Shown here: piece after piece, positions 4,215 to 16,548 of the stretch
Layout: the number at the start of each line of letters is the position of its first letter
Numbering within the stretch: position 1 is the stretch's first letter
Source: a virus
IMG/VR virus record: IMGVR_UViG_3300010208_000015
Location: 1 to 41,720 of that record
Length of the DNA: 41,720 nt
Direction: 5' to 3' (one strand)
The notes under the pieces: generated by a model
Databases searched by the model: none
What the model was told of the DNA's origin: nothing
The model's input: the letters and a program-made list of their open reading frames with translations, nothing else
Position numbers and translations under genes: made by a program

Positions 4215-5816
4215 TTAGATAAATAAAATACCTCTGCCATCATAAACAGAAGTATTATTTACATTTTCACATCTTATTGCTCTGTCCAGTGCCATTATAG
4301 TTGCAACAGCTCCATCAATCTTTTCAGTTGATTTCTCTTTATCAGGTTTTATATTACCTGCAGGGTCTCTTCTTATAAAAATATTATCCATCATCCATCT
4401 TAAAACAGGATGTTTTCCATGTGCTATTTTTCGCTCTAATACAAGTTTCATTAACTCTTTAGTTGGTGGACTCATATCTTTAAACCCTTGCCCGAAGGGA
4501 ACAACAGTAAAGCCCATGCCCTCTAGGTTTTGAACCATTTGAACAGCACCCCATCTATCGAAGGCTATTTCTTTTATATTATATTTAGTTCCTAATTCTT
4601 CTATGAATTTTTCAATGTATCCATAGTGAACAACATTACCTTCGGTTATTTCTAAATGGCCAGTTTTTAACCAAACATCGTATGGAACATGATCTCGTCT
4701 AACTCTTAAATCAAGACATTCTTCAGGTATCCAAAAATATGGTTTAATTATATATTTATCATCTTCATCAACTGGTGGAAAAACTAAGACAAAAGCTGTT
4801 ATATCAGTTGTTGAAGATAAATCTAATCCTCCATAACAAACTCTACCATTAAGGGAATTATTATCAATTTTAAATCCACATAAATCCCATTTATTCATTG
4901 GCATCCATCTAACAGTTTGTTTTACCCATTGATTCAATCTTAACTGTCTAAAAGAATTCTCTTCACCAGGATTTTGTCTTGCACTATCACATGCAGCTTG
5001 AACCTTATCAAAACCTATTGTTTCTCCAATGGAGGGATTTGCTTTTATCCAAGTTTTTCTTTTAGTCCAATCATCCTCTTCACTTGCTCCATATATTACA
5101 GGATAGAAGGTACTATCTATTTTTCTACCTTCTATCAAATCAATTGCTTTTTGATGTTGCTCATAACATATTGAGTGCGTATCTGTTCCTGCTGTAGTTA
5201 TTAAAAAGAATAAAGGTTGTGTTCTTGCATCGCCTGATCCTTTAGTCATTACATCAAATAGTTTTCTATTAGGTTGAGTATGCAATTCATCAAAAACAAC
5301 CCCATGTACATTAAAGCCATGTTTTGAATAAGCTTCAGCTGATAAAACTTGATAGAAACTATTCGTTGGAAGGTAAATTATTCTCTTGGTAGCTGTTAGT
5401 ATTTTTACTCTTCTACTCAAGGCTGGGCACATTCTAACCATGTCAGCTGCAACTTCAAAAACAATAGATGCTTGCCCTCTATCTGCTGCACATCCATATA
5501 CTTCAGCTCTCTCTTCAAAGTCCCCACAAGTTAATAAAAGTGCAACAGCGGCTGCTAGTTCACTCTTTCCATTCTTCTTTGGAATTTCTATATATGCTGT
5601 ATTAAATTGTCTATATCCATTTGATTTAACAATTCCAAAAAGATCTCTTATTATTTGCTCTTGCCAATCCAATAATTCAAAAGGTTTTCCAGCCCATATC
5701 CCTTTGGTATGACTTAAACAATTTATAAAATTAACTGCATAATCAGCCTTTTCTTTGTCATAAATTGAATCCTTTGCTATAAATTTTGACACTTCATATT
5801 GTTTTAATTTTTTCAT
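4215..5816 (-). CDS. terL: Terminase large subunit (packaging ATPase-nuclease)
   Basis: This 533-residue motor cuts concatemeric DNA and drives it into the prohead. The ATPase has Walker A IPKKNGKS (about residues 78-85), a Walker B/catalytic segment VVFDELHTQ, and a coupling segment LITTAGTD. The C-terminal RNase H-like nuclease shows the acidic positions in GGLDLSSTTD, IAFDRWG and KIDGAVA. The ATG at 5816 gives the normal N terminus (MKKLKQYE). A TTG five codons upstream has a better-placed AGGGG, but that AGGGG lies within the terminator hairpin at 5830-5852. The gene is therefore preceded by a terminator whose stem could also hide its ribosome site. Confidence 0.93.
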   Translation of the reverse strand: MKKLKQYEVSKFIAKDSIYDKEKADYAVNFINCLSHTKGIWAGKPFELLDWQEQIIRDLFGIVKSNGYRQFNTAYIEIPKKNGKSELAAAVALLLTCGDFEERAEVYGCAADRGQASIVFEVAADMVRMCPALSRRVKILTATKRIIYLPTNSFYQVLSAEAYSKHGFNVHGVVFDELHTQPNRKLFDVMTKGSGDARTQPLFFLITTAGTDTHSICYEQHQKAIDLIEGRKIDSTFYPVIYGASEEDDWTKRKTWIKANPSIGETIGFDKVQAACDSARQNPGEENSFRQLRLNQWVKQTVRWMPMNKWDLCGFKIDNNSLNGRVCYGGLDLSSTTDITAFVLVFPPVDEDDKYIIKPYFWIPEECLDLRVRRDHVPYDVWLKTGHLEITEGNVVHYGYIEKFIEELGTKYNIKEIAFDRWGAVQMVQNLEGMGFTVVPFGQGFKDMSPPTKELMKLVLERKIAHGKHPVLRWMMDNIFIRRDPAGNIKPDKEKSTEKIDGAVATIMALDRAIRCENVNNTSVYDGRGILFI

Positions 5817-5829
5817 AATTTTTAGACAC

Positions 5830-5852
5830 AAAAAAAGACCCCTAAGGGTCTT
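5830..5852 (-). terminator. Intrinsic terminator immediately upstream of terL
   Basis: On the minus strand the arms AAGACCC and GGGTCTT form a perfect 7-bp stem with a 4-base loop, followed by a run of seven T. The terL ATG begins about 14 bases after the T run. The 3' arm contains the only Shine-Dalgarno-like AGGGG upstream of terL, so folding could affect both transcription and translation. Confidence 0.8.
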
Positions 5853-8103: not shown

Positions 8104-8405
8104 TAATTCTCTCCATTATGTTTAAAAAGAGATAAAAAATATTCATCCATCTTCTCTTCTTGATTCTCTGATTCACCATTGATTTCATGATTTCTAAGAG
8201 CCTTAAAAATGACCTTATCATTTTCTAAGGTCATAACTAAACCTTCCTGAACAAAGGAAAGTTTTTCTTTTATTGTTTTGATATCATCATGAGTTGAATC
8301 TTTAAAATCTCTTTTTTTAGTAGCTCTATTTAAAAACCAAATCACTAAACCACCAGAACCAAATATTGATATTATGAGAGTATTAACTACATTCCAATTG
8401 TTCAT
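8103..8405 (-). CDS. Membrane-anchored coiled-coil phage protein, holin-like accessory
   Basis: This 100-residue protein has an N-terminal membrane segment (NTLIISIFGSGGLVIWFL), a KKR stop-transfer, a short coiled coil (about residues 35-60) and a C-terminal LENDKVIFKALRNHEINGES segment followed by a helix. Related small proteins accompany holins in many phages and are often annotated as holin-like. I chose the ATG at 8405 because AGGAAA lies upstream; the ATG at 8420 has no good ribosome site. It overlaps the methyltransferase gene and abuts the next membrane protein. It could anchor a lysis or superinfection-exclusion complex. Confidence 0.5.
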   Translation of the reverse strand: MNNWNVVNTLIISIFGSGGLVIWFLNRATKKRDFKDSTHDDIKTIKEKLSFVQEGLVMTLENDKVIFKALRNHEINGESENQEEKMDEYFLSLFKHNGEN

Positions 8406-9642
8406 AATTCTTTTCCTCATTAATCAACTCATCATAACAATAAGAAAGGCCATCTCTTTCAACTGATACCTTTTCACTTGAACCAACTAATTCAATATAT
8501 CTTTTTATAATTACATCACAATATTTTTCATCAATTTCACAAGTATAACAAACTCTATCAGTTTGTTCACAAGCTATAAGAGTACTACCGCTGCCACCAA
8601 AGGGGTCTAATACTAAAGTTCCACTCATAGAAGAATTCATAATAGGATATGCTATTAATTGAATAGGTTTCATTGTCGGATGATCAGCATTCTTTTTAGG
8701 TTTATCAAACTCCCAAATAGTAGATTCTTTTCTTCCTGTAAACCAATTATGCTTCCCTTTCTTTTTCCAACCATATAAAACAGGCTCATGTTGCCATTGA
8801 TAAGGGGATCGACCAAGTACAAGAGATTGTTTCTTCCAAATACAAGTCCCTGATAAATAAAAACCAGCATTGTTAAAAGCCTTTCTAAAATTAAGACCTT
8901 CAGTATCAGCATGGAATACATAAATGGATGCATCTATTGCCATGCATTTTTCTATATTTTCAAAGGCAGCCAACAGGAAAGAATAGAAAGAATTATTATC
9001 CATATTGTCATTTTGAATTTTACCTGCGTTACTTTCATAATTAACATTATATGGAGGGTCGGTTACAACAAGATTTGCTTTTTTTTCACACATTAAATGA
9101 TTATAAGTTTCTTCTTTTGTGCTATCCCCACAAATGAGCCTATGCTTTCCTAAGGTCCAAACATCACCTTTTTTAGTAATTAGAGGATTTTTCAACTCAT
9201 CTTCTACATCAAAATCATCATCCTCTAAGCCATCTTTTAAACTATCCTTAAATAAATCATCAATCTCTTCAGTATCAAAACCAGTTAGAGATACATCAAA
9301 ATCAGCACCTTCTAAATCTGTTATTAATAAAGCTAATTTTTCTTTATCCCAATCACCTGATATTTTATTTAATGCTATATTTAAGGCTTTTTCTTTCTCA
9401 ATTGATAAATCCACAATTACACAATCAAGTTCTTTTAAACCACAATCTTTTAATACTTTTAATCTTTGATGACCACCCACAACTTGTGATGTTTTTTTAT
9501 TAAAAATAACTGGCTCAACATAACCAAATTGAGTTATTGATCTCTTTAATTTTTCATACTCCACATCACCTGGTTTCAAATCTTTTCTAGGATTGTAATC
9601 GGCAGGTATTAATTCATTTATATTCTTTTTCTCAATTTCCAT
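8383..9642 (-). CDS. ParB-like domain fused to a DNA N6/N4 methyltransferase
   Basis: This 419-residue protein modifies phage or host DNA using S-adenosylmethionine. Residues 1 to about 125 form a ParB/sulfiredoxin-type domain (ELIPADYNPRK, QVVGGHQRLKVLKD). The catalytic motif DPPYNVNY (about residue 196) lies before the SAM-binding motif DPFGGSGSTLIACE (about residue 352), the order of beta-class amino-methyltransferases. The target-recognition region lies between them. An ATG at 9642 was preferred over a TTG at 9651. It overlaps metK by 11 bp, which couples SAM production to SAM use. I see no cognate restriction gene next to it. Confidence 0.88.
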   Translation of the reverse strand: MEIEKKNINELIPADYNPRKDLKPGDVEYEKLKRSITQFGYVEPVIFNKKTSQVVGGHQRLKVLKDCGLKELDCVIVDLSIEKEKALNIALNKISGDWDKEKLALLITDLEGADFDVSLTGFDTEEIDDLFKDSLKDGLEDDDFDVEDELKNPLITKKGDVWTLGKHRLICGDSTKEETYNHLMCEKKANLVVTDPPYNVNYESNAGKIQNDNMDNNSFYSFLLAAFENIEKCMAIDASIYVFHADTEGLNFRKAFNNAGFYLSGTCIWKKQSLVLGRSPYQWQHEPVLYGWKKKGKHNWFTGRKESTIWEFDKPKKNADHPTMKPIQLIAYPIMNSSMSGTLVLDPFGGSGSTLIACEQTDRVCYTCEIDEKYCDVIIKRYIELVGSSEKVSVERDGLSYCYDELINEEKNYEQLECS

Positions 9643-10798
9643 ATTTTTCAAACATCTCCATTAATTCTTGTGATTTATCAAAATACTCCCAAGTATTATT
9701 TTTTATATTATTGAAATGACCATAAGTCGAAGTTTTTGAATATTTAACATTTCTTAGGTCTAAATCATTAATGATTGCGGAAGGTCTTAAATCAAAAGTG
9801 TTTAAAACTATAGCTTCTAAAATAGCTTCAGATATACAAGAAGTCCCAAATGTTTTTATTTCTAAAGCTACTGGATAAGCTTTACCAATTGCGTAAGAAA
9901 TGGAAGTTTGACATTTACTTGCAAATCCACATTTCACAATATTCTTTGAAATAGCTCTTGCCATATAAGCTGCAGACCTATCAACCTTGGTTGGATCTTT
10001 CCCTGAAAAAGCACCCCCACCATGAGCTGCTAATCCACCATAGGTATCAACGATTATTTTTCTACCAGTTAGTCCTGTATCTGCAGCAGGACCTCCTAAC
10101 ACAAATTTGCCTGAAGGATTTATTAATATGTTTGTATTAATATCAATTGGAAAATCTTCAAAAACTGGATTTATTACTTTTTCAATTATTTCTTTTTTCA
10201 ATTCAATAACATATATCTCTTCAATGTGTTGAACTGATACTACTATTGTAGAAACCCTTATAGGGATATCCCCATCATACTCAATACTAACTTGAGCTTT
10301 TCCATCAGGACCAATTCCAAAAATTGATAAATCCTTCATACATACATCTAATTTTTTACAAATTGCGTGTGCTTTAACTAAGGGTAAAGGTAAAAATTCT
10401 TTTGTTTCATTTGTAGCATAGCCAATTACAGTCCCTTGATCTCCAGCACCTAACTCTATTTGTTTTTTTACTTCAATTTTTCTAACTTCTAAAGCCAAAT
10501 CAACACCATCAGAAATATCCAAACTTTGATTATGAACATATACGGATATTTTATAATCATTGGGATTATAGCCAACATTTAATAAAACTTCTTTTACAGT
10601 TTGTTTTATATTAATTCTTACTTTGCAGGTTATCTCACCAGCCACAATTATGTGATTCGCAGTTGCTAGAACTTCACAAGCAACTCTAGAATTTTTATCT
10701 TTTTCTAAACAAGCATCTAGAATTGTATCGGATATTAAATCACATAATTTATCAGGATGCCCTTTGCAAACTGATTCAGATGTCACTAGTTTTTTCAT
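9632..10798 (-). CDS. metK: S-adenosylmethionine synthetase (methionine adenosyltransferase)
   Basis: This 388-residue enzyme makes SAM from methionine and ATP. All main motifs are present: the N-terminal TSESVCKGHPDKLCD, the GAGDQGTVIGYATNE loop (about residue 117) and the Gly-rich GGGAFSGKDPTKVDRSAAY (about residue 255). Length is normal for bacterial MetK, so it is probably active. It sits between the small terminase and the methyltransferase on the late strand, overlapping the latter. A phage-borne metK beside a methyltransferase suggests that the phage supplies its own SAM during late infection, or restores it after depletion. That purpose is inference; the enzyme family is clear. Confidence 0.93.
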   Translation of the reverse strand: MKKLVTSESVCKGHPDKLCDLISDTILDACLEKDKNSRVACEVLATANHIIVAGEITCKVRINIKQTVKEVLLNVGYNPNDYKISVYVHNQSLDISDGVDLALEVRKIEVKKQIELGAGDQGTVIGYATNETKEFLPLPLVKAHAICKKLDVCMKDLSIFGIGPDGKAQVSIEYDGDIPIRVSTIVVSVQHIEEIYVIELKKEIIEKVINPVFEDFPIDINTNILINPSGKFVLGGPAADTGLTGRKIIVDTYGGLAAHGGGAFSGKDPTKVDRSAAYMARAISKNIVKCGFASKCQTSISYAIGKAYPVALEIKTFGTSCISEAILEAIVLNTFDLRPSAIINDLDLRNVKYSKTSTYGHFNNIKNNTWEYFDKSQELMEMFEKYGN

Positions 10799-10827: not shown

Positions 10828-11364
10828 TTATTTTTTCTTTGAATTAAGAAGTCTCTCCATCAAATCATCTTGAGGGCTAGCTCCCTTAAAATCAGATGAG
10901 CTATTTTCTTTTACAAGCTGGAATATCTGGAACCAACATTGGTTAACTTGCTTCATATATTCACGACTCATTGAAACATAGGGAGAAGCAATAGCCGCAC
11001 CAGTTGTTGGGTGCTTTGCAAGAAAACCAAAATCACTTATTGCTGTCTCGCACTGGATCCATCTTGCAACACTCATAGAATATTGCTCTATTAACTGTGG
11101 ATTAACTATTTCTTCACACCGCCTAGATTTAAGATAATTCCAAGTGTCCTTATACACATCTTTTGCACAGAACTCTAGACCACTTTTTTGTAAAGCTAAC
11201 ATGTAATCTTTTACAGGAGGCATTTCTAATCCATTTAAATTTGGAGTATCAGGGAGATCAAATACAACAGCAGATTTTCCTTCTGTTATTTTTGTTGCAA
11301 GTGCTTTTGGTTTTCTACCAGCACCAACTCTAGCTCCACCTCGATTTGTGCCATCCTTAGCCAT
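10828..11364 (-). CDS. terS: Terminase small subunit, P27-like
   Basis: This 178-residue protein would recognise the packaging site and load the large subunit. It starts MAKDGTNRGGARVGAGRKPK, with the GAGRKPK basic tail typical of P27-type small terminases, followed by helical segments (YKDTWNYLKSRRC, then MSVARWIQCETAISDFG). AAGGTGG precedes the ATG at 11364. It follows the HNH gene after a 122-bp gap and is separated from terL by metK, the methyltransferase, the lysis genes and cargo, an unusually wide separation of the two terminase subunits. Confidence 0.8.
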   Translation of the reverse strand: MAKDGTNRGGARVGAGRKPKALATKITEGKSAVVFDLPDTPNLNGLEMPPVKDYMLALQKSGLEFCAKDVYKDTWNYLKSRRCEEIVNPQLIEQYSMSVARWIQCETAISDFGFLAKHPTTGAAIASPYVSMSREYMKQVNQCWFQIFQLVKENSSSDFKGASPQDDLMERLLNSKKK

Positions 11365-11486: not shown

Positions 11487-11840
11487 TTAACCCCATCTGT
11501 CGCCATTTAATGTATGAAGTCTTGAATGGCATGACTTGCAAAGAGCCATTAAGTTATCCCAATCATTGCTACCACCTTCAGCTAAAGGGATAATATGATG
11601 AACTTCTTGTGTTGGAGTATTGATCCCACGTTTTTTACATATCTCACAAACTGGATGTTGTTTCACATAAGCATCTCGTATTCTTTTCCAATGAGGACCA
11701 TATCTTTTTTTCGTTTCAGGGTTGCGTTTATATTTTTCATAATGCTGTCTTGTTAACTTCTCATGCTCCTCGCAGTACCTTCCATACGTTAATTTTGGAC
11801 ATCCTGGATATGCACAAGGCTTTTTAGGTTTTTTAGGCAT
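11487..11840 (-). CDS. HNH endonuclease, packaging-associated
   Basis: This 117-residue HNH protein has a Cys-rich start (CAYPGCPKLTYGRYC), a basic middle part, and the HNH core: CEICKKRG, EVHHIIPLAEGGSN and NLMALCKSCHSRLH. In HK97-type cos phages a small HNH protein next to the terminase is needed for cohesive-end cutting. The start is the ATG at 11840 with GGGA upstream. The start lies only 13 bp from the T run of a terminator (11853-11885), so its expression requires read-through. The 122 bp between this gene and terS hold no gene; I see only a somewhat GC-richer patch. Confidence 0.88.
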   Translation of the reverse strand: MPKKPKKPCAYPGCPKLTYGRYCEEHEKLTRQHYEKYKRNPETKKRYGPHWKRIRDAYVKQHPVCEICKKRGINTPTQEVHHIIPLAEGGSNDWDNLMALCKSCHSRLHTLNGDRWG

Positions 11841-11852
11841 TTCATTTTCCCA

Positions 11853-11885
11853 TAAAAAAGAACCCAAATTGCTTTGAGTCCTCTT
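11853..11885 (-). terminator. Terminator hairpin of repeat unit 1, just before the HNH gene
   Basis: On the minus strand an imperfect stem (AAGAGGACTCAAA against TTTGGGTTCTT) with a short GCAA loop is followed by six T. The HNH start codon lies 13 bases further on. Late transcription must pass this site. Confidence 0.65.
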
Positions 11886-11899
11886 GATATATTTTTCTA

Positions 11900-11950
11900 A
11901 TTTTAGAGTAACTAAAAAATGCTACTGTAATCAACTGTTATTTACTGTAA
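11900..11950 (-). promoter_or_regulatory. Candidate late promoter and activator sites, unit 1
   Basis: Same architecture as unit 2: TWACAGT sites at 11944-11950, 11934-11940 and 11924-11930 (minus-strand reading), the last overlapping a -35, an 18-bp spacer and a -10 TAAAAT at 11900-11905. This copy is closest to the HNH gene and is followed by its own terminator. Confidence 0.6.
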
Positions 11951-11976
11951 TTTTTATTTTTTACCACTCATAAAAA

Positions 11977-12003
11977 AAGAACCCAAATTGCATCAGGTCC
12001 TTT
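11977..12003 (-). terminator. Terminator hairpin of repeat unit 2
   Basis: On the minus strand AAGGACC pairs with GGGTTCTT (one wobble) and is followed by seven T (11972-11978). It lies about 10-15 bases after the expected start site of the unit 2 promoter, so the default product would be a very short RNA. Confidence 0.65.
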
Positions 12004-12017
12004 TACATATTTTTCTA

Positions 12018-12068
12018 ATTTTAGAGTAACTAAAAAATACTACTGTAATCAACTGTTATTTACTGTAA
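12018..12068 (-). promoter_or_regulatory. Candidate late promoter and activator sites, unit 2
   Basis: On the minus strand three sites (TTACAGT, TAACAGT, TTACAGT; plus-strand coordinates 12062-12068, 12052-12058, 12042-12048) are spaced exactly 10 bp, one helical turn. The last overlaps a -35 (TACAGT) placed 18 bp from a -10 (TAAAAT, 12018-12023). A weak -35 overlapped by phased sites is what an activator-dependent promoter looks like. The DUF1492 protein (16147) is the obvious candidate activator, by inference. Confidence 0.6.
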
Positions 12069-12161
12069 TTTTTATTTTTTACCACTCATGCTTTAAAACA
12101 ATCCACCCTCAATTACTTTAACTGAAATTTTGTTTATACAACTCACCCCTTTATTTCTTTT

Positions 12162-12200: not shown

Positions 12201-12255
12201 TATATATAATAGGGGTATACATACACATATAGTACTATTACCACTATTATATATA
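12201..12255. repeat. AT-rich inverted repeat
   Basis: The arms TATATATAATAG and CTATTATATATA are perfect over 12 bp with a loop of about 31 bases that contains GTATAC and AGTACT. It might be part of the packaging or replication region, or simply low-complexity DNA. Confidence 0.5.
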
Positions 12256-12578: not shown

Positions 12579-12607
12579 TTGACTTAGTTTCCTTATAATG
12601 ATAATGT
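12579..12607 (+). promoter_or_regulatory. Candidate promoter of the channel operon
   Basis: TTGACT (12579-12584) is followed after exactly 17 bp by TAATGT (12602-12607). The channel gene's GGAG and ATG (12631) follow directly. Confidence 0.5.
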
Positions 12608-12630
12608 TTTTATTCAATGGAGAGTTTTTT

Positions 12631-13326
12631 ATGAAAAGTTTATATAATATTTTAGAAGATCCAAATAATAGACTTAATCCATTTTATAATGGGTTTATGT
12701 TAATAATAATTTTTATGAGTTTATTAAGTTTATTATTCAAAAATGAATATAAAGTTCTAACTTATATTGATTATATTACAGTTTCCATATTTATAATTGA
12801 TTATATATTAAGACTAGTAACAGCTAATATTAAACTTAAAAAAGGATTAGCATCTTATCTTATTTATCCTTTCACTGGATGGGCAATTATAGATTTGTTA
12901 TCAATTTTACCCTCATTTAATATTTTATCTAGTAGTTTTAAAATATTTAGAGTTCTAAGACTATCAAAGTTATTCAGAGGACTACGAATATTAAAAATAT
13001 TCAAAGTTTCAAAACAAGTAAAAATCTTTGTTGCAGTATTCAAAAAAGAGAAAAATGCACTAATTTCCTTTGGATTGTTTGCTCTTGGCTACATATTTAT
13101 TACTGCTCTATTAATTTTTAATGTTGAACCTGATACCTTTAATAATTTTTTTGATGCAATTTATTGGGCAACAGTTTCATTAACAACTGTTGGATATGGT
13201 GATATTTATGCAACATCAGTTATAGGAAGAATAATTACAATGATTTCTTCTTTATTTGGAATTGCTTTAATAGCAATGCCAGCTTCTATAATTACATCTG
13301 GGTTATTAGAAGAAATGAATAAATGA
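12631..13326 (+). CDS. Voltage-gated potassium channel (six-segment type)
   Basis: This 231-residue membrane protein has the complete six-segment plan: S1-S3 in residues 18-95, an S4 voltage sensor with Arg/Lys at every third position (FRVLRLSKLFRGLRILKIFK, about 107-126), S5, a pore helix with the selectivity filter TTVGYGD (about 185-191), and S6. It should conduct K+ across the inner membrane in response to voltage. The ATG at 12631 has GGAG 10 bases upstream; the longer frame from 12598 covers the promoter region. The next gene starts 14 bp later, so the two are one operon. An ion channel within a phage control region is unusual; whether it serves the host, lysis timing or defence cannot be told from sequence. 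Confidence 0.9.
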   Translation: MKSLYNILEDPNNRLNPFYNGFMLIIIFMSLLSLLFKNEYKVLTYIDYITVSIFIIDYILRLVTANIKLKKGLASYLIYPFTGWAIIDLLSILPSFNILSSSFKIFRVLRLSKLFRGLRILKIFKVSKQVKIFVAVFKKEKNALISFGLFALGYIFITALLIFNVEPDTFNNFFDAIYWATVSLTTVGYGDIYATSVIGRIITMISSLFGIALIAMPASIITSGLLEEMNK

Positions 13327-13340
13327 AAAGGAGTTAAAAA

Positions 13341-14138
13341 GTGAAAAAAGTAATAGTATATTGTTTAGAAGAACTAAATTACGAAATTTTGAAAACAATT
13401 CAAAACGAAGGCTTAGAAGCAGATTTAAATTACATTGATGTTTCAAATATCTATGATATGAGCAGATTATTTATAAATTTTCCTTTTATTGGGAATATAT
13501 CAAACTGGGATGTTTCAAATGTTGAAGATATGAGCTGCATGTTTTTTGGCAGTTGTTTTAATGGAAATATATCAAACTGGGATGTTTCAAGAGTAAAAAA
13601 CATGAGTGGAATGTTTAGTAAATCTACATTTCAAAGAGATATATCAAAATGGGATGTGTCTAATGTACTTGATATGAGTTATATGTTTATGAATTCTCAT
13701 TTTAATGAAAATATTTCAAATTGGGATGTTTCTAAAGTCGAAAACATGAGATTAATGTTTAGTAGCTCAAAATTTAATGGGGATATTTCTAAATGGAATG
13801 TTTTAAATACAAAAGACATGCTTGGATTATTTGCTTCGTCCAATTTCAATGGAGATATTTCTAAATGGAATGTTTCTAATGTGCTTGATATGAGTTTAAT
13901 GTTTGAGGGGACGCCTTTTACTGGGGAGCTTTATAGTTGGGATGTTTCTAAAGTCGAAAACATGAGTGGAATGTTCGCTCATTCAAAATTTTATGAAAAT
14001 ATTTCTAACTGGAATGTTTCAAATGTAAAAGATTTTAGTGGAATGTTTGTTGGATCTCTTTATAAAGGGGACTTATCAAATTGGAATATTTCACCAAAGG
14101 CAAATGTAAAATCTATGTATAAATTGTCTATAAATTAA
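13341..14138 (+). CDS. DUF285 (BspA-type) repeat protein, no signal peptide
   Basis: This 265-residue protein starts at a GTG with AAAAGGAG seven bases upstream. After about 50 residues it consists of nine 24-residue repeats of the form ISNWDVSNVEDMSGMF, the DUF285 (mycoplasma/BspA-type) pattern, which probably forms an elongated solenoid. Most relatives are surface proteins, but this one lacks an export signal (MKKVIVYCLEELNYEILK), so it is probably cytosolic. It lies 14 bp after the K+ channel gene and is probably co-expressed with it, which suggests a scaffold or sensor tied to the channel. That functional link is inference. Confidence 0.85.
   Translation: MKKVIVYCLEELNYEILKTIQNEGLEADLNYIDVSNIYDMSRLFINFPFIGNISNWDVSNVEDMSCMFFGSCFNGNISNWDVSRVKNMSGMFSKSTFQRDISKWDVSNVLDMSYMFMNSHFNENISNWDVSKVENMRLMFSSSKFNGDISKWNVLNTKDMLGLFASSNFNGDISKWNVSNVLDMSLMFEGTPFTGELYSWDVSKVENMSGMFAHSKFYENISNWNVSNVKDFSGMFVGSLYKGDLSNWNISPKANVKSMYKLSIN
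13494..14135 (+). repeat. Tandem 72-bp coding repeats of the DUF285 gene
   Basis: Nine units, each 72 bp (24 codons), run head to tail without indels; the last is shorter. Adjacent units share segments such as AATATTTC, AAATGG and GATGTTTC, so unequal crossing-over could change the number of units. Confidence 0.85.
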
Positions 14139-14261
14139 TAAAATTGGCAAGTCTAATAATTGTTAATATTTTTATTTGCTCATTCCAATCTATTGCCAAT
14201 TGTATAATATTTTTATATCCACTAAAATAATAGATAGGCAACTAAACTTTTGAGGTACTCT

Positions 14262-15449
14262 ATGAAACACATTAAAGCTACAATATTAATTGTGCTATCT
14301 TTATTATTTATATCTTGCCCTATAACTAATGCAATACCAAATAATACGCAACCTACAGAATCAATAAAACTAGCTAGCTGGAATATTAGAATTTTATCTA
14401 ATGATAGCCGAGATGATTCAGAACTACAAAAAATTGCTACAATAATAGATAGATATGATATCGTTGCAGTTCAAGAAGTTAGAGATGATGAAGTAATTAA
14501 TAGATTACTCAATATATTACCTGATGAATGGGATGCTATAATTTCCAACAAAACTGGAAGAGGTGTAAAAGAAAAATACACTTACTTTTATAATTCAGAT
14601 ATTATTCAACCACTTGGAACCTCTTATCTATTTAGTGATCCTGATGATCTACTAATTAGAGAACCCTTTATTGCTCATTTCAAAGCATCTAATTTTGATT
14701 TTACATTAACAACTATTCACTCCATTTTTGGAGATAGCATTAATGACAGAAGAGCAGAAATAATGAAGATGGATGATATAATTGCTTTAGTAGATACAGC
14801 AAATGGTAGTGAATCTGATATTATATTACTAGGGGATTTCAACATGCCAGCAGATGATTATAGCTGGGATATGGGAACCTACCACAATCTAATACAACCT
14901 ACATTAAAAACAACAATAACTGATACTAGTAGCTACGATAATTTTTGGATTAACTCTGGTACTTGGAACAGAGAATATAATTCTTTTTATGAAATGTACA
15001 AATTTGATGAATTGTTATTTTCTAATGATGATGAGCAAGCAAGCCTAGAAGTGTCAGACCATAGGCCTATATCAGCTAAATTTATCACAAACCTAGGCGA
15101 TGATGATTTATCTGGTAACTGGATTAAAACCACAGGATTTACAGCCACTGGTGGTTCTTCAGGCTATCCCACAACAGGTGATATTAGAATATATAGTGTT
15201 GTAAAAACCCCAACTGAAAATGAGTCAGTAACACTCAAGAATTATGATTCAGTTGATATTGATATAAGTGATTGGACTCTAGGTGATAAAAACAACCCAA
15301 CATCTCATAATTTTAGCAATGGTACAATTATCAAAGCTGGAGAAACTTTATTTCTAAATCATTCAACTCTAGGTTTTGGAATTAATGACACTGGAGAGAT
15401 ATTATATTTAAAAGATGGCTCTGGTGCTGATGTTGATATTTGGCCATAA
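14262..15449 (+). CDS. Exported endonuclease/exonuclease/phosphatase-family protein with lamin-tail domain
   Basis: This 395-residue protein has a signal sequence (KATILIVLSLLFISCPITNA) whose LFISC resembles a relaxed lipobox. Residues 35-285 form a DNase I-like domain: ASWNIR, VAVQEVRDD, the metal-binding GDFNMPADD and the catalytic VSDHRPI. The C-terminal 90 residues (LKNYDSVDIDISDWTLGD, then GTIIKAGETLFLN) are a lamin-tail immunoglobulin-like domain that often targets exported nucleases to the envelope or DNA. The start is the ATG at 14262 with GAGG upstream; the frame upstream uses TTG. It probably degrades extracellular DNA for nutrition or DNA removal. It ends 4 bp from the convergent gene at 15454. 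Confidence 0.82.
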   Translation: MKHIKATILIVLSLLFISCPITNAIPNNTQPTESIKLASWNIRILSNDSRDDSELQKIATIIDRYDIVAVQEVRDDEVINRLLNILPDEWDAIISNKTGRGVKEKYTYFYNSDIIQPLGTSYLFSDPDDLLIREPFIAHFKASNFDFTLTTIHSIFGDSINDRRAEIMKMDDIIALVDTANGSESDIILLGDFNMPADDYSWDMGTYHNLIQPTLKTTITDTSSYDNFWINSGTWNREYNSFYEMYKFDELLFSNDDEQASLEVSDHRPISAKFITNLGDDDLSGNWIKTTGFTATGGSSGYPTTGDIRIYSVVKTPTENESVTLKNYDSVDIDISDWTLGDKNNPTSHNFSNGTIIKAGETLFLNHSTLGFGINDTGEILYLKDGSGADVDIWP

Positions 15450-16146: not shown

Positions 16147-16548
16147 TTATATTTTAACCAATCGTATAGCTTTTCTATGCAAATAATACACATGGTCTTG
16201 AGACACATTAAGTCTTATTGCTATTTCTTGCCAACTCAAATATTCAAGATATCTCATCTCCAATATTGTCTCACAGGATATATTGTTTATTGCTTTAATA
16301 GCACTCTCAATTTCTTCTTTTAAACCAATAAGCTTTATTATCTCTTTATTTATATAATCTTCTAATTCCATTATCGTTAATAAAGTTTTTTCCATTCTTG
16401 ATTTTTCAGTTACACTACAATTAGGCATATCTGAAATTGATGGAGTTACATATATTGCATGAGCTCTTAAATATTGTAATTGATTTTCTTTAGATTTGAT
16501 TTGTCTCTCCAAATAAAAAGCTCTAGATAAAAATTCTTTATTTGTCAT
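16147..16548 (-). CDS. DUF1492 / RinA-ArpU-like late transcription regulator
   Basis: This 133-residue protein matches DUF1492: N-terminal FLSRAFYLERQIKSKENQL, a long helical dimerisation part (IMELEDYINKEIIKLIGLKE), then a sigma-region-4-like helix-turn-helix (LEMRYLEYLSWQEIAIRLNV, followed by SQDHVYYLHRKAIR). Related proteins switch on late and packaging genes in Firmicutes phages. It is the last gene of the early strand and faces the late control region, so it is the best candidate to bind the phased TWACAGT sites at 11924-12068. It overlaps the next upstream gene by 11 bp. The binding link is inferred. Confidence 0.82.
   Translation of the reverse strand: MTNKEFLSRAFYLERQIKSKENQLQYLRAHAIYVTPSISDMPNCSVTEKSRMEKTLLTIMELEDYINKEIIKLIGLKEEIESAIKAINNISCETILEMRYLEYLSWQEIAIRLNVSQDHVYYLHRKAIRLVKI

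Follow-up and report, generated by a model that had tools for sequence, protein, structure and literature searches.

The 41,720-nt viral stretch examined here, positions 1 to 41,720 of the IMG/VR record IMGVR_UViG_3300010208_000015 and called the window below, carries two tandem 118-nt units on the minus strand. They adjoin the upstream side of an HNH-terS-terL-portal-protease-capsid operon, and each holds three phased sites, a probable promoter and a terminator-like hairpin. We suggest that these units constitute a "start, stop, then pass" late switch, similar to those of the Q and AlpA proteins but used by a regulator family unrelated to either, and on the sequence evidence we put the probability of this reading at slightly more than one half. 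A terminator is conserved between nearly every such promoter in the relatives and the first late gene, and therefore late transcription must get past a stop. The switch would then have a second step, which is absent from the literature that we examined.

The initial annotation of this DNA had proposed two operator-promoter-terminator units in series before the late operon, each with three TWACAGT sites at a phase of exactly 10 bp, and both proposals were borne out. The segments 11851-11968 and 11969-12086 form a gap-free tandem direct repeat of 118 nt each with 86% identity. The pattern TWACAGT-N3-TWACAGT-N3-TWACAGT had exactly two matches in the 41,720 nt, both without mismatch when three mismatches were allowed, and shuffled sequences led us to expect 0.02. 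The parts of the two units are as follows.

11969..12086, minus strand: unit A, the upstream one (putative operator, promoter and terminator), direct repeat
12042..12068, minus strand: three TWACAGT sites of unit A at 10-bp phase (12068-12062, 12058-12052 and 12048-12042), from the pattern search and unit comparison
12023..12028, minus strand: probable -10 TACTCT of unit A, placed by register with relatives; estimated start near 12016
12023-12018, minus strand: second -10-like element of unit A, TAAAAT, overlapping TACTCT, placed by register with relatives
11972..12004, minus strand: predicted terminator hairpin of unit A, stem 12004-11975, partly overlapping a T tract that ends at 11972
11851..11968, minus strand: unit B, the downstream one (putative operator, promoter and terminator), direct repeat
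11924..11950, minus strand: three TWACAGT sites of unit B at 10-bp phase (11950-11944, 11940-11934 and 11930-11924), from the pattern search and unit comparison
11905..11910, minus strand: probable -10 TACTCT of unit B, placed by register with relatives; estimated start near 11898
11854..11885, minus strand: predicted terminator hairpin of unit B, stem 11885-11856, T tract to 11854

The choice of TACTCT as the likely -10 was made because AGTTACTCTAAAATTAG of the window aligns by eye with the TGnTAnnnT promoter motif of the relatives. This register puts the starts nearer 11898 and 12016, with an uncertainty of about 5 nt, than the 11893 and 12011 proposed at first. A -35 element overlapping the last site had also been proposed; no consensus -35 is present, but the third site does sit at the -35 position. 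The hairpins behave as had been predicted, in that a terminator directly follows each estimated start and both hairpins fold in spite of their different sequences. In unit A the predicted hairpin has a folding energy of -12.0 kcal/mol (z -4.0) and is followed by seven T, and that of unit B has -13.1 kcal/mol (z -5.1) and is followed by six. Within their first 80 nt the units differ by a single base. Their other differences, including an indel of 1 nt, are confined to the 5' arm of the hairpin and its flank, with the 3' arm identical, and the changes inside the stem preserve pairing with this unchanged arm. A consensus scan with strict rules found neither a promoter nor a terminator on the minus strand inside the units, and it was replaced by folding and a T-tract search with controls. 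No Rfam family was found on the leader in the window and seven relatives.

Relatives were collected in a viral sample of 157 loci, fetched by their HNH and terS genes, which yielded 83 non-redundant leaders. Three-copy repeats at spacings of 8-13 bp were scored in 60 similarity-filtered leaders against a shuffled control. At 10 bp, 40% of the leaders passed a strict score cut-off; at 8, 9, 11, 12 and 13 bp the proportion was 0%, and none of the shuffles passed at 10 bp. Phages differ in the sequence of the site (TGGCACA, TTGAGCA, AATGTCC, ATGAGAG and others), as they should if specificity differs between regulators. Expectation-maximisation on 78 relatives recovered the motif TGnTAnnnT, an extended -10, with a close second -10-like element and a purine-rich start. 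The distance between the end of the last site and the -10 is usually about 14 bp or ten more (24), which puts the array in register with the promoter and the last site at the place where sigma region 4 would bind. The initial annotation had made its proposal depend on the presence of phased sites in related phages, and arrays together with terminators were found in almost all of them.

The terminator is also conserved. It was found just before the HNH gene in 78 of the 83 non-redundant viral leaders, compared to 104 of 904 control gene starts (11.5%) on the same contigs. Four of the five exceptions (L002, L022, L028 and L094) have extra DNA before HNH, and their terminator is further upstream in the gap between HNH and the gene of the late transcriptional regulator (ltr), after the promoter; L072 was the sole viral leader in which no terminator was found. 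Wherever ltr adjoins HNH, the gap contains exactly one terminator (100 of 100 loci). A separate collection of genome contigs, which partly overlaps with the viral sample, gave a terminator in 66 of 67 leaders, and the remaining one has a terminator beside ltr. Covariation was evident in the stem, where 10 of 12 pairs had changed on both sides. Even with the most stable hairpin picked regardless of T, the next positions were T in 88, 79, 72 and 72% of cases, and the element thus looks like a terminator rather than a plain hairpin. This bears on the idea that the main role of the hairpin is to protect or process the late message or to tune the translation of its first gene, with termination being minor. 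The hairpin is at the extreme 5' end of the message and near the ribosome site, the T tract beginning a median of 26 nt before the start codon in the viral leaders, which would suit such a role. However, stability would not need the T that is conserved 3' of the stem even in hairpins picked without it, and we consider this explanation unlikely.

Two other candidates for the function of the leader were dropped. Downstream of the T tract there is often an ATG, but in the leaders inspected neither frame nor stop was conserved as a leader peptide would have them. The staphylococcal cabRNA (PMC10686824) was considered as the leader RNA, but it maps within terS-terL and not in the leader. In several leaders (L034, L042, L118 and others) a conserved TATGCCC follows the T tract, and the GGGC of the terminator could pair with its GCCC.

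The position of the terminator relative to the promoter is the most informative feature. At 67 non-redundant loci with adjacent ltr, it was downstream of the -10 every time and never upstream. We estimated 17-20 nt (interquartile) between start and hairpin and a terminated RNA of about 56 nt (interquartile 54-57 nt); the spacing appears tighter than it is owing to kinship among the leaders. A simpler explanation would be that Ltr is only an activator and the terminator ends early transcripts of ltr and blocks stray read-through, so that, with no antitermination, a strong activated promoter or a leaky terminator suffices for late expression. In most relatives ltr ends a median of 31 nt before the -10, and early transcripts would therefore reach the terminator. 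Moreover, the layout is common to three regulator types between which no relation was detected, as would fit a requirement of the operon rather than of a single protein, and no clear pause element was found. Against this, a stop serving early transcripts could be placed upstream of the late promoter at no cost, but it was never found there; the terminator, with a stem that folds, is kept beside the promoter where ltr is 1-4 kb off and kilobases of genes separate the two, as in the window; and it travels with extra copies of the unit. Because of the first two of these facts, we favour the reading in which polymerase has to pass the terminator, and regard a purely insulating terminator as unlikely.

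In many temperate phages of Firmicutes, transducing phages among them, it is Ltr proteins, described as activators, that turn on packaging and lysis. The window has one such protein.

16147..16548, minus strand: DUF1492 late transcriptional regulator (Ltr), likely ligand of the sites; DUF1492 3.8e-7, Sigma70_r4 7.7e-7

The initial annotation had suggested that the sites before the late operon are the operator of this protein. That prediction is supported. The protein matches PHROG 36 (7e-24), a group that also contains RinA, and RinA itself in a profile comparison (hhalign, E 5e-6), by which it belongs to the RinA/ArpU-type family of late regulators. Its AlphaFold2 model (mean predicted local distance difference test score 88) consists of two long helices, a loop that is uncertain and, at the C-terminus, a sigma-4-like domain. 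The model superposed, for example, on region 4 of SigR with a root-mean-square deviation of 1.1 over 53 columns, and no PDB match reached an E value of 0.001. Its close structural relatives were phage DUF1492 proteins and "sigma-70 region 4" proteins.

From these data, we infer a switch in a siphophage of the spirochaete-phage clade. Ltr (16147-16548) would bind the three sites along one face of the DNA, and its sigma-region-4-like domain would occupy the -35 position and help polymerase to start where a proper -35 is lacking. The predicted intrinsic terminator would be transcribed 13-20 nt after the start, and an unmodified polymerase would release an RNA of about 45-60 nt, leaving the late genes off. 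By default, polymerase coming from upstream, or started without Ltr, would stop at the hairpin, and where ltr abuts the operator the early transcript would end at the same terminator. For late expression, the polymerase started by Ltr would pass the terminator, most simply if it is made resistant by Ltr itself or by a change that depends on Ltr at the promoter, as with Q and AlpA. It is tempting to extend this to the RinA/ArpU/DUF1492 "activators" in general, and probably to other types of Ltr, as promoter-loaded antiterminators that recruit and modify polymerase and have their own terminator about 56 nt after the start; we hold this wider proposal only tentatively. If this is true, Firmicutes and spirochaetes would have their own counterpart of lambda Q, with a sigma-region-4-like domain as its basis, and Q-like control would extend beyond Proteobacteria.

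Several observations weigh against an antitermination switch. Leaders of the Listeria A118 type are without a clear terminator beside the promoter, their hairpin having a long loop and no good T tract. The search for a pause in the initially transcribed region, an element on which both Q and AlpA depend, gave a best -10-like score of 1.74 vs 0.83 in shuffles (mean p 0.36), a weak enrichment. Neither Q nor AlpA was among the listed PDB sequence or fold matches of the DUF1492 protein; the fold matches listed were only sigma factors, at the sigma-4-like part, and generic helical proteins. An antitermination ability would be needed separately by three or more regulator types among which the tests run detected no relation. 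Common ancestry also accounts for part of the tight spacing. A sigma-dependent pause like that of lambda (TAGAAT about 14 nt after a -10) was convincing by eye, but it was dropped in view of the weak enrichment against shuffles. As a separate observation, the hairpin of the Listeria A118-type leaders (L166:5770-5830, L386-L465) comprises about 11 bp, and in L421 it appears to have undergone a compensatory change.

The second copy in the window would have arisen as a tandem duplication of the whole unit. The duplicated unit had been proposed as something to look for in related phages, and it recurs in the closest ones, which are spirochaete phages. Extra copies occur almost only in the clade of the window itself, whose members in the genome collections are Sphaerochaeta and other Spirochaetes, and in this clade 8 of 9 extra copies retain the terminator. 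L467, the closest relative found in genome collections (75% in TerS), has two complete copies 225 bp apart that are 96% identical; L145 has two copies 137 bp apart; and L101 has four, which include the first codons of the HNH gene. A gene for a small lipoprotein-like product is located between copies in L101 (1583-4427) and L109 (4186-5317). Because extra copies recur in relatives of the clade, the doubling is recurrent, and its probable origin is the recombination by which cargo genes, too, are acquired. The late leader can be seen as a portable module, copied together with such genes.

Whether the second unit contributes to control is a different matter. We find it rather probable that it is a neutral by-product of recombination at the joint and adds nothing. 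The spacings vary within the clade (118, 137 and 225 bp, and 0.5-1.4 kb), the copies flank cargo genes and pieces of the HNH start were copied too, and copies near ltr can decay. On the other hand, the closest relative likewise retains two complete and nearly identical copies, and nearly all differences between the copies of the window are changes in the hairpin that leave pairing intact. Three further loci (L087, L097 and L088) also have the late leader unit copied, and the joint looks like a place where recombination gains cargo genes. Right after ltr in L088 (at 4698) and L109 (at 3632) there are degenerate unit copies without terminator, apparently decaying remnants of an ancestral position next to ltr.

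The late genes that the switch would control are the following.

11487..11840, minus strand: HNH endonuclease, first late gene; Pfam HNH 1e-16
10828..11364, minus strand: terminase small subunit; Pfam Terminase_4 1.5e-7
4215..5831, minus strand: terminase large subunit, with portal, Clp-type protease and capsid genes downstream (to 989)

The longest open reading frame of the HNH gene starts at 11867, within the terminator; the ATG at 11840, which is used by the relatives, is a likelier start. In the window, ltr is not directly upstream of the promoter, where the gene of such a regulator is usually found, but about 4 kb away, with other genes between. Members of the clade have the same gap whereas L082 and L467 keep ltr close, and the gap therefore reads as a later insertion. 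Between ltr and the late operon (12598-15449) there are three plus-strand genes, for an ion channel, a DUF285 repeat protein and a nuclease-like protein with a lamin-tail domain. An A+T-rich inverted repeat lies at 12201-12255, about 115 bp upstream of the first unit, with 17-nt arms that are 94% complementary and 21 nt apart. Between terS and terL, the window encodes an S-adenosylmethionine synthetase (9632-10798) and a ParB-like/N6-N4 DNA methylase (8383-9651), and a synthetase-like gene after terS is also found in L101 and L109.

It is already known that Ltr controls late promoters with repeats. Within the literature searched, which excludes the founding RinA/Ltr papers (Nucleic Acids Research, NAR, 2011 and 2013) and has no mention of a terminator in Ltr late leaders, the near-universal terminator, the constant distance at which it lies, the covariation of its stem, the array phased strictly at 10 bp and in register with the -10, and the occurrence of this system in spirochaete phages appear to be new. 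Among known systems, RinA of phi11, Ltr of phi13 and Alt of TP901-1 resemble the window in their small regulator and in the direct repeats that immediately precede the promoter of the packaging operon, and in all three leaders we found a terminator before the first late gene. They belong to siphophages of Gram-positive bacteria, whereas the window belongs to the spirochaete-phage clade, and the length and spacing of the repeats differ (18 bp in phi13 (PMC13123087) vs 10 bp in the window). The late promoter of phi13 requires Ltr and its repeats (PMC13123087). In phi13 the terminator is downstream of the promoter, named P23 in the same study (PMC13123087), which makes no mention of it. The reporter used there reached 50 nt past the start (PMC13123087); this fragment probably ends inside the hairpin and therefore would not have tested it. 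Phages of the TP901-1 type have tRNA-like elements between promoter and terminator: the Alt promoter and the terminator before terS are separated, at L165:5137-5500 and in other loci of the Alt type (L248-L327), by one tRNA that Rfam recognises and by further tRNA-like pieces that vary by phage.

The initial annotation had likened the units to lambda pR'/tR', and this comparison holds in part. In the Q systems of lambda, 21 and 82, as in the window, the regulator has a site at the late promoter and a terminator follows shortly downstream. The Q site, however, is located between the -35 and the -10, whereas the sites of the window are at about -53 to -27, with the last ending about 14 bp upstream of the -10 and the others further upstream. 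The weak pause enrichment and the lack of a Q sequence or structure among the listed matches are the other differences. The fold of the 21Q protein is sigma-4-like and its site is a direct repeat (PMC6606751). AlpA of Pseudomonas aeruginosa (P-alpB/tB) is a promoter-bound positive regulator of lysis genes with which polymerase bypasses a downstream intrinsic terminator (PMC9371919); its site is between the -35 and the -10, it needs a sigma-dependent pause, the protein is unrelated to Ltr and the system is no late-operon switch of siphophages. On this comparison the parallels with 21Q and AlpA are likenesses and not membership, and the likeness is in the layout. An intrinsic terminator shortly downstream of the regulated promoter is present in the window as judged by sequence and folding.
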